Of a stretch of 64,000 nucleotides of DNA, positions 21,198 to 23,823 are shown piece after piece. Source of the stretch: Terriglobia bacterium. Lineage in GTDB: Bacteria > Acidobacteriota > Terriglobia > JAIQFV01. Within the stretch, counting starts at the first letter, position 1, and each line of letters starts with the position of its first letter. A program made the position numbers and the translations under genes. Under the pieces are notes generated by a model, which was not told where the DNA came from, did not search any database, and worked only from the letters and a program-made list of their open reading frames with translations. The stretch is from NCBI GenBank assembly GCA_020072965.1, contig JAIQFY010000001.1, forward strand, positions 124,001 through 188,000, written 5' to 3'.

Positions 21198-22630
21198 ATG
21201 GCCCCTTTGAACCCAAACACATTCTCCGTGGCATCACTGCGCCAGGCCCTCTCTGCAGGGGAACTGTCTGCGCGGGAAGTCTGTGCCGCCGTTTACGAGC
21301 ACGTCGGGAATGTGGATCCCAAGTACCGGGCGTTCCTTTCGTTGAGCCGGAAGCGCGCTGAAGCACAGGCCGCCCGAGTGGACTCGATGCCCCGTGCGCA
21401 ACGGCCTCCCCTGGCTGGAGTACCCGTGGCGCTCAAAGACAATATGCTCCTGGAGGGATTCCCCGCGACTTGCGGCTCCAAAATTCTGGCGAACTACATC
21501 TCGCATTATGACGCGACGGTGACCCGGAAACTTGAATCGGCCGGGGCGCTCATCATCGGCAAGACAAACCTCGATGAGTTTGCCATGGGGAGTTCAACCG
21601 AGAACTCGTCATTCTTCCCCACGTTGAACCCCAATGCACCCGACCGAGTGCCGGGTGGATCGAGTGGGGGTTCGGCAGTGGCCGTCGCTACGGGGATGGT
21701 GGTGGGCGCGTTGGGGAGTGACACCGGTGGATCGATCCGGCAGCCGGCGGCACTGACGGGAGTGGCGGGTCTGAAGCCCACCTATGGCCGGGTCTCTCGA
21801 TTCGGATTGATTGCGTTCGGGTCCCCTTCGGGCGCTCGGTCGCGGACGTCGCGGAACTGCTTCATGTCATCGCCGGCCATGACCCCAACGACTCGACCTC
21901 AGTCCCCCTGCCTGTTCCCAACTATCCCGAGGCGCTGGGACGTGACATCAAGGGCCTGGTCGTCGGCGTTCCCTGGGATCTTCTCGGGGAGGGTCTTGAG
22001 ACCGAAGTGAAAGGACATATTACCGGGGCCGTCCGCTTGCTCGAGAGGATCGGATGCAAAATTGAACCGGTCCAACTTCCCCATTCGAAGTATGCAATCG
22101 ATGTGTACTACATTGTGGCCCCCGCGGAAGCCAGCTCCAATCTGGCGCGATTCGATGGAGTCCGTTACGGCTTTCGCTCACCGAACGTCCACACCCTTTC
22201 TGAAATGTACCGGCAGACGCGAGAATGCGGGTTTGGGCCGGAAGTTAAACGGCGCATCATGCTGGGAACCTATGCCCTGAGCGCCGGCTACTATGATGCC
22301 TATTATCTCAAGGCCCAAAAGGTTCGGACGCTGGTCGCACGGGATTTCAAGGAGGCCTTCAAGAAGGTGGATGTGGTGGTTTGTCCGACGTCTCCCACCA
22401 CGGCATTCAAGTTGGGGGAAAAAACTGAAGACCCGCTCTCCATGTACCTGAGCGATGTGTTCACTATTACGGCCAACCTGGCGGGAATCCCAGGAATTTC
22501 TCTCCCCTGCGGGAAAGACAAGCATGGTCTTCCCATCGGCATTCAATTTCTCGGCCGGCCTTTTGATGAACTCAAGATGCTTCAACTCTCCTACGCTTAC
22601 GAGCAGGCCGGGGGATTCGGTTTCGGATGA
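21198..22630 (+). pseudogene. gatA: Amidotransferase subunit A, frameshifted by a deletion of about 19 nt
   Basis: GatA is the amidase that frees ammonia from glutamine for tRNA amidation. The catalytic triad is intact: K80 (PVALKDNM), S155 (VPGGSSGGS), S179 ([13 protein letters not shown]). The 5' frame then reads [19 protein letters not shown] and breaks at about 21824. The family continues [15 protein letters not shown], and [20 protein letters not shown] is found in the +2 frame beginning at 21824. Six codons plus one base are thus missing. The first frame runs on to a nonsense stop at 22010, and the second continues normally to 22630. The C-terminus (SYAYEQAGGFGFG) also departs from the usual EQA-T/D-x-x-x-R-R-P ending; its stop lies in repeat sequence. 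Either a real lesion in a normally essential gene, or an assembly error. Confidence 0.9.
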
Positions 22631-22800
22631 TCCAACCGGGACAGACGTCGGGTGGCGCACACATGCGCTCTCGGCCCGCCGCGGCGGGCGGCCTTCCGCA
22701 AGAGAGACCTCGTCAAGAGGTTAGAGAACTGATCGATTCTTCACCGCACACCTCGCAAAAGGCGCGATGTATGCGCCACCCTATCCAACCGGGACAGACG
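22630..22800. repeat. Palindromic region bounded by 18-bp direct repeats
   Basis: Identical 18-bp direct repeats (ATCCAACCGGGACAGACG) lie at 22630-22647 and 22783-22800. Between them are inverted arms GGGTGGCGCACACAT (22650-22664) and its near-complement (22767-22781, 14 of 15), and a perfect 16-bp palindrome centred on CCGCGG (22674-22689). The first direct repeat overlaps the gatA stop codon. It looks like a small non-coding mobile or REP-type element. Confidence 0.65.
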
Positions 22801-22857
22801 CGAACGGCACGAAGTCACTATTAAACCCAGTTCATTTGTTTCATCTTCCAATGGATA

Positions 22858-23196
22858 ATTCCCCCGACGGAAGTCGGGGGATACTTCAGATTCAGCCTAC
22901 TGCCCCCTTCGACATTCCCGCCTTCAATCCCCCCAACGGTAGTTGGGGGATGATTCAAATACTACCTCCCCGGCCCGACGCGCGTGCTCGTTCAATTGTA
23001 TCAACCGCCCCGCCGACGGGATTCGGGAATTGCTATTCTGATTCCAGCGCGCGCAATCCGGCGAGATCCTAACTCCCGCCTCAGCGAGCGGCCGGGTCTG
23101 AACTATCCCCCACCTCCCGGTGGGGGAATTTGAATATACCAGCTAGCCCGTCGGTAGGCTGAACTTGAATGTTCCCCCACCTGCCGGTGGCGGGAT
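22858..23196 (-). repeat. Four-hairpin palindromic element, copy A
   Basis: Four hairpins with 8-9-bp stems and 4-nt loops at 22860-22881, 22928-22951, 23106-23127 and 23173-23195 (one mismatch). The outermost pairs carry the tag TTCARGTWCAGCCTAC or its inverse on their inner side (22885-22900 and 23153-23169). Read on the minus strand, the whole block aligns with copy B at 44187-44520, including parts of the central 150 bp (for example a GGATAGTTCAGAYCCGGCC segment). Confidence 0.8.
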
Positions 23197-23367
23197 TCGA
23201 GAAAATAGCAGCCACTACTCCTTTCTTCGACAGTTCGAGGCGTCAAATGTCTTCAATTTTCATTTTGCTTTGCAGGCGTGCCTTGATCTGTCTGCGTTTA
23301 TCATCCAATTGGAATTGAAAAGACTCGACCGCAGATCCAAGCCGTTCAGTAGTCTGTTGTGCTGAAC

Positions 23368-23429
23368 AAAAAAACAACCCTCGATAAGCGCCGCCGCTCC
23401 AAGACGCTGGAGACCGCTTCTCGAGGGTT
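23368..23429 (-). terminator. Intrinsic terminator of the candidate RNA gene
   Basis: On the minus strand a long hairpin with arms AACCCTCGA/TCGAGGGTT (23376-23384 with 23421-23429) contains further paired segments AAGCG/CGCTT and CTCCA/TGGAG. It is followed directly by a run of seven T (23374-23368). A strong Rho-independent terminator for minus-strand transcription. Confidence 0.75.
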
Positions 23430-23706
23430 CGGTAGGCTGTTTGGATTGGTTCGAATCAATTGCCGGCTCCACAAATTCCCTGCCCGACAATCAATCCGCC
23501 ATGAGCAGTTCCGCTCGCGGTTTATCGCAACAACGCGCGGATAATCCGCCCTGTGACTGTTCTACTGCTGCTTATGGTAAACGAATCAACCCAAAACTAC
23601 TCAATGGATGCCCATCCACCTGAAGGATTCACATCCCAGAGGATTGGAGGTATCCATCCGCAACGATCTACACATGTGATCGCTGCTAGATTTCAGGCGA
23701 TTCGGT

Positions 23707-23766
23707 CTAAACCGCAGTCACCTCACATGGGTCATGGTTGATACTACATAATCCTTCTTGCAACAT
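23707..23766 (-). CDS. 19-aa small ORF at the head of the candidate RNA
   Basis: ATG at 23766, stop TAG at 23707. Product MLQEGLCSINHDPCEVTAV. The ribosome-binding site AAAGGAGGTG is a full match to the 16S anti-Shine-Dalgarno and sits 6 nt (from GGAGG) before the ATG, much stronger than at most genes in this window. Two Cys and one His are present. It is too short to infer function; it may be a leader peptide or a real microprotein. Confidence 0.45.
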   Translation of the reverse strand: MLQEGLCSINHDPCEVTAV

Positions 23767-23795
23767 GGACCACCTCCTTTCCTGTGTACGCTGAC

Positions 23796-23823
23796 AATAC
23801 ACAATTCAAAAAACCAAAGTCAA
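23796..23823 (-). promoter_or_regulatory. sigma70-type promoter of the candidate RNA
   Basis: Minus strand: -35 TTGACT (23823-23818), 16-nt T-rich spacer, -10 TGTATT (23801-23796). The predicted start is near 23789, about 23 nt before the small ORF. Confidence 0.55.

Follow-up and report, generated by a model that had tools for sequence, protein, structure and literature searches.

Small RNAs that carry an ORF are already known as a kind, and one branch of the family considered here has been described as Ms_IGR-5 (Rfam RF02471), which is present and expressed in Mycobacterium and Streptomyces (PMC8079986, PMC8780764, PMC4974804) and bears ribosome footprints in M. abscessus and M. smegmatis (PMC4974804). 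The mycobacterial RNA lies beside a PabC-like aminotransferase gene and an Rv0813c-like gene (neighbor gene names, here and below, come from reading protein sequences). In the RF02471 consensus structure, the 3′ box is unpaired and the helix that we call P2 is absent, and the model output carries no ORF annotation. Our literature search, with most subscription journals outside its reach, returned no paper on function for the RNA sequence, Rv0812/Rv0813c, or ncRv10812. Here, we report that a minus-strand unit in an acidobacterial window, i.e., the whole 64,000-nucleotide stretch of DNA that was analyzed, almost certainly belongs to a cross-phylum family that includes these RNAs.

The unit extends from ~23787 to 23368 with promoter, Shine-Dalgarno (SD) sequence, 19-codon ORF, structured RNA, and terminator all present; about 280 nt of structured sequence lie between the ORF and the terminator hairpin. 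It lies in the same orientation as pdxJ, 3′ of that gene, is convergent with gatA, and reads as a free-standing transcript with a predicted length of ~420 nt. Its parts are as follows:

23788–23823, minus strand: promoter, with TTGACT at 23823–23818, an 18-nt spacer, and TATTGT at 23799–23794.
About 23787, minus strand: likely 5′ end, ACAC; the spacing from −35/−10 to ACAC is the same in genomes G001 and G002 and in other families.
23767–23780, minus strand: extended SD, AAAGGAGGTGGTCC; its core is invariant in alignment A2.
23768–23771, minus strand: 5′ side of helix P1, GGUC at the 3′ end of the SD, which can pair with GACC at 23733–23730.
23707–23766, minus strand: 19-codon ORF, MLQEGLCSINHDPCEVTAV, ATG to TAG; frame and stop position are conserved.
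23730–23733, minus strand: 3′ side of P1, GACC within the ORF; the counterpart pairs co-vary in other phyla.
23715–23724, minus strand: ORF-end element, GAGGTGACTG (Glu-Val-Thr codons), the 5′ strand of P2; GAGG is kept and P2 covaries.
23553–23559, minus strand: lineage-specific internal CAGUCAC, a perfect complement of the ORF-end GUGACUG.
23428–23449, minus strand: conserved 3′ box, CCAATCCAAACAGCCTACCGAA, with the AAUCC motif at 23447–23443 and the 3′ strand of P2 at 23439–23431.
23368–23428, minus strand: intrinsic terminator, a long hairpin followed by TTTTTTT, kept in loci L003 and L004.

A first-pass annotation of this DNA had proposed a near-consensus promoter with a 16-nt spacer. The TTGACT is where it was placed and relatives keep it; for the −10, TATTGT after 18 nt is a better reading than TGTATT after 16, since relatives have a TAYRAT-like −10 about 6 nt before the conserved ACAC. 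Consensus matching by itself leaves the promoter within chance (1 found versus 1.4 expected), and the support for this putative promoter comes from its conservation, not from its match to consensus. The other parts noticed at that stage held up well. The SD pairs over 14 nt, including one G-U, with the 16S 3′ tail GGATCACCTCCTTT, which ranks it among the strongest ribosome-binding sites possible; AAAGGAGGTGGTCC is found once in the 5.9-Mb genome, AAAGGAGGTGRTCC is matched elsewhere only by the 16S 3′ end read in antisense, and the RNA is single-copy. The 456-nt RNA folds at −163.5 kcal/mol (z −3.6; 0 of 100 dinucleotide shuffles as good), and the terminator hairpin with its seven T is retained in both G001 and G002 despite sequence changes.

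Several side features of the neighborhood should be recorded. A frameshift divides gatA in the window (21198–22630, plus strand) into two overlapping ORFs of 270 and 207 amino acids, which in G002 are one 480-amino acid ORF; this is either an assembly error or a recent lesion. An 18-bp perfect direct repeat, ATCCAACCGGGACAGACG, lies at and after the gatA end (22630–22647 and 22783–22800), and between gatA and the RNA (22857–23200) there are REP-like palindromes (CCCCCGACGGAAGTCGGGGGAT and kin), for which the genome has 29 close matches, many of them spaced 65 to 69 nt apart.

Rfam cmscan at the gathering threshold returned no match in the window. Below it, RF02471 scored 15.4 bits (E 0.68; gathering cut-off 45 bits), which looked like noise at first and was later borne out as a true relative; the other weak matches by E-value, P9, Gut-1, and MIR531, were in the wrong place or of low score. 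The actinobacterial loci are RF02471 (67–176 bits) and some acidobacterial loci fall just above the cut-off (L026, 49.3; L042, 47.7; L076, 50.8), while Rfam misses nearly all acidobacterial copies. As a phylum-wide probe, RF02471 matched 8 of 199 genomes and none in the window’s class; owing to this weakness, we built a head model, R1, a sequence-based model that covers the first 71 positions of the RNA. Of 299 genomes in the window’s class, 179 have the RNA according to R1 (161 among the 240 good genomes), nearly always as one copy, and R1 also finds it in several families that belong to other acidobacterial classes; by R1, the RNA is mostly absent from families f3, f6, and f8. Please note that the contig of L076 is labeled Acidobacteriota and its copy is of Acidimicrobiia type (EVAGR), possibly through mis-binning or transfer.

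Full-length identity to the window unit is 93% in G001 and 72% in G002, where the unit again lies between gatA and pdxJ. Short matches in family f7 share only the SD and the ORF end with the window RNA, and for this reason a motif search was run (SD, then 20–50 nt, then GAGGTGRCTG), which recovered true homologues with promoter, ORF, and terminator in f1, f5, f7, f9, and f15 together with a few additional chance matches. The same motif over 84,980 named genomes gave at least 120 matches; among the matches listed, most are from Actinobacteria, with Acidobacteria besides, and others are in genomes labeled Deltaproteobacteria, Nitrospinae, Spirochaetia, Zixibacteria, and Sumerlaeota. Judged by this motif, the RNA spans at least six bacterial phyla, and the earlier suggestion of an Acidobacteria-specific RNA has to be given up. 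A profile made without the window’s family has its best window match at 23788–23707 (E 1.2e-9), an actinobacterial-only profile at 23789–23714 (E 1.1e-6; next match 0.097), and graded intermediates occur within the phylum. Common descent of the window RNA with the actinobacterial RF02471 members is what these results indicate.

Part by part, Ms_IGR-5 and the window RNA are alike in the 5′ end ACAC, in AAGGAGGTGRTCC, in a GUGAGGUGRCUG element followed by a stop, and in a 3′ box ahead of the terminator; they differ in ORF length (19 codons in the window versus about 12) and in a long insertion in the window copy. The window 3′ box (23449–23428) scores 13.5 by weight matrix, versus 3.6 for the next best site, and the terminator (23428–23368) comes after it, so the RNA has, after the SD and ORF-end element, a 3′ box and a terminator, as RF02471 does.

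The ORF was evaluated in 145 homologues picked irrespective of reading frame. A start codon at most 12 nt from the SD, open to GAG in frame, is present in 134 of the 145 (versus 30 and 1 for the two alternative frames), and in 144 exactly five codons separate the start of GAG from the stop (TAG 115, TGA 15, TAA 14), versus 0 in other frames. The 19-codon ORF reported at first pass follows this rule: it shares the frame of GAGG and has its stop at exactly this distance from GAG. Given the fixed stop and the in-frame start, the ORF looks translated; we consider its translation very probable, and the mycobacterial ribosome footprints are consistent with it. Six Acidimicrobiia-type loci (L085, L110, L125, L135, L156, and L157) have no in-frame ATG, GTG, or TTG; these ORFs may start at CTG or another unusual codon. 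Codon use, assessed in a set for which an open frame and no particular residue was required, is distinctive: serine makes up 24% of residues in acidobacterial ORFs versus 5% in flanking genes, the serine codon AGT occurs 79 times in frame versus 3 and 0 in the other frames, and the rare codons TTA, AGA, ATA, TGT, and CAA are enriched. The signature is weaker but the same in other phyla.

Two helices tie the ORF to the rest of the RNA. P1 is formed between the 3′ part of the SD and the ORF (AUCC-GGAU in 15 cases, GUCC-GGAC in 86), and P2 is a long-range helix between the ORF end, GGUGRCUG, and the 3′ box, CAGYCACC, a counterpart of which was found by weight matrix in most homologues. A third, P3, paired by eye between the P2 strands, would hold the stop codon. 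In 39 distinct combinations, mean P2 pairing is 8.14 of 9 versus 7.44 when shuffled (z 8.2; 0 of 3000 shuffles as high), to be read with the caveat that boxes were chosen by AAUCCC/ACC context and that the sequences are related; this curated set was preferred because an upstream-motif-only box finder and a bulge-tolerant class test have little power. Element position 6 shows five standard pair types (A-U, G-C, G-U, C-G, and U-A), position 8 shows U-A, G-C, or U-G, and position 9 shows G-C or U-A, while position 10 has many pair types and, in Acidobacteria, many mismatches. Examples of co-change are EVP with box CAGGCCACC, EVS with CAGAYUACC, and EGA (GAGGGUGCUGA) with box UCAGUAUCC. The compensatory changes that the first-pass annotation called for are thus found across the family, and its reading as a structured or leader-peptide RNA is upheld by homologues that keep the SD, frame, stop position, and covarying helix.

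In the window’s own lineage, P2 is seemingly weakened. The window element pairs with its 3′ box at 6.5 of 9; the helix has a bulge, a single mismatch (terminal box: CAGCCUACC), and one end left unpaired, and folding favors other pairings. This holds more widely: folding gives P2 a mean probability of 0.75 in non-acidobacterial copies versus 0.20 in Acidobacteria, where other pairings compete and P2 is unpredicted in most copies. The f1 copies also have a long insertion holding a second CAGUCAC (23559–23553), kept in all three (window, G001, and G002), although folding does not pick its pairing with the ORF end; this arrangement may represent either a switch or a decaying P2.

We give a probability of about 0.4 to the reading of this family, RF02471 included, as a translation-gated riboregulator acting in trans. 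It draws on what comparison has shown, i.e., a ribosome-recruiting site, a kept frame, a fixed stop on P2, covariation, and a changing gene context. With its strong ribosome-binding site and a stop that always falls at one place on a conserved helix, the RNA probably reports on or senses translation. Across the family, the last codons of the ORF double as the 5′ strand of P2, whose partner, the 3′ box, immediately precedes the terminator. A ribosome at the stop would cover and melt P2 and P3 and so free or remodel the 3′ box and the conserved AAUCCC motif; if free ribosomes are few, or if ribosomes stall at rare serine-, cysteine-, or arginine-type codons, then the RNA would keep its alternative shape, and slow codons would tune the opening of P2/P3. 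Candidate partners are mRNAs, a protein, or the 30S subunit itself. Against this gating stand the mismatched and bulged P2 of the window’s lineage, which thermodynamic folding does not choose, and the folding of most acidobacterial copies without P2; moreover, A-U-rich rare codons near the start can simply hold the initiation region unfolded.

Action in trans is suggested by the neighbors, which are not conserved: gatA/pdxJ in f1, Nudix genes in f7 and f9, rpmE in f5, and thiG in some f9 copies. Since they differ between lineages, the RNA probably acts in trans or on ribosomes. It may do so as an ordinary or dual-function trans sRNA, with the 3′ box pairing to target mRNAs and the ORF just protecting or tuning the RNA. 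The stand-alone gene with its own promoter and terminator, the naming of Ms_IGR-5 as an sRNA, and the C/A-rich, partly anti-SD-like box (AAUCCC..CAGYCACC), whose AAUCCC is conserved across phyla and mostly unpaired, all fit; we nevertheless hold it to be improbable, at roughly one chance in five, because the box changes track the ORF end in the same RNA, so that self-pairing explains much of the box, and because a strict stop position and in-frame serine codons would be unnecessary.

If the peptide itself is the product, then the family would be a micropeptide gene ending in EV(A/T)xx, in which RNA structure only controls translation. Frame, start, and stop are conserved, synonymous changes occur (GTG to GTA and GCT to GCC), and the composition is polar and Ser-rich; yet the start-proximal half is hardly conserved as protein between families, the total length ranges from 11 to 22 amino acids, and the conserved C-terminal residues coincide with P2, their variants (EVA, EVT, EVS, EVP, EVV, and EGA) following the RNA pairing. 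We regard this reading as unlikely. Equally unlikely in our estimate is a decoy of the 30S subunit or ribosome, a brake on translation in which the 14-nt 16S complement and a second SD-like GAGGUG before the stop hold the 30S: the SD is unique in the genome and GAGG is kept although its first two bases fall outside P2, while an in-frame ORF and a fixed stop would not be needed and GAGGUG is GAGGGU or GAGGUA in some families. A role in cis, as an attenuator or as the leader for a gene that follows, is very improbable and was rejected, since in the window the next gene, gatA, is convergent and no co-directional regulated gene lies downstream, the Nudix genes of f7 and f9 are convergent too, and neighbors vary by lineage with a terminator intervening, even though f5 copies (L182, L185, L195, L213, and L216) lie directly upstream of co-directional rpmE (ribosomal protein L31), in an interval that has a terminator and possibly a new promoter.

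In the literature searched, within the limit given above, we found neither the range across phyla nor the acidobacterial branch, the ORF with its fixed stop and in-frame Ser codons, or P2, so that the first-pass idea of an undescribed RNA is right for the branch, the conserved ORF, and P2, and wrong for the actinobacterial members, which are Ms_IGR-5. A supposed actinobacterial sRNA is a single-copy RNA of many phyla, and the current model misses both its ORF and its covarying helix; a corrected Rfam model would annotate hundreds of genomes where the intergenic region now appears empty. The predicted mini-ORF translation switch is testable in laboratory Mycobacterium and Streptomyces, as both carry and express the RNA. 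We would only tentatively go further, to an RNA of ancient origin and single copy that several acidobacterial families carry almost universally and share with Actinobacteria and further phyla. Such an RNA would measure translation through a ribosome-loaded mini-ORF of rare, Ser-rich codons, its termination hard-wired to an RNA switch, and would be a global regulator on a par with 6S RNA that had been classed as just another actinobacterial sRNA.

Among known systems, 6S RNA and tmRNA are likewise single copy and widely distributed. Their Rfam models have no match in the window, and a tRNA or tmRNA identity of the RNA was checked and rejected; the tag ORF of tmRNA is without SD or start codon. 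Amino-acid leader peptides and attenuators share a short ORF rich in particular codons (here the rare Ser codon AGT) and alternative structures, but no operon follows the RNA in the window and in most lineages, and the box always precedes the terminator. The dual-function sRNAs SgrS/SgrT and SR1/SR1P share the stand-alone transcript with a short ORF; unlike in those, the ORF end and the RNA helix here are the same bases, and the peptide is variable.
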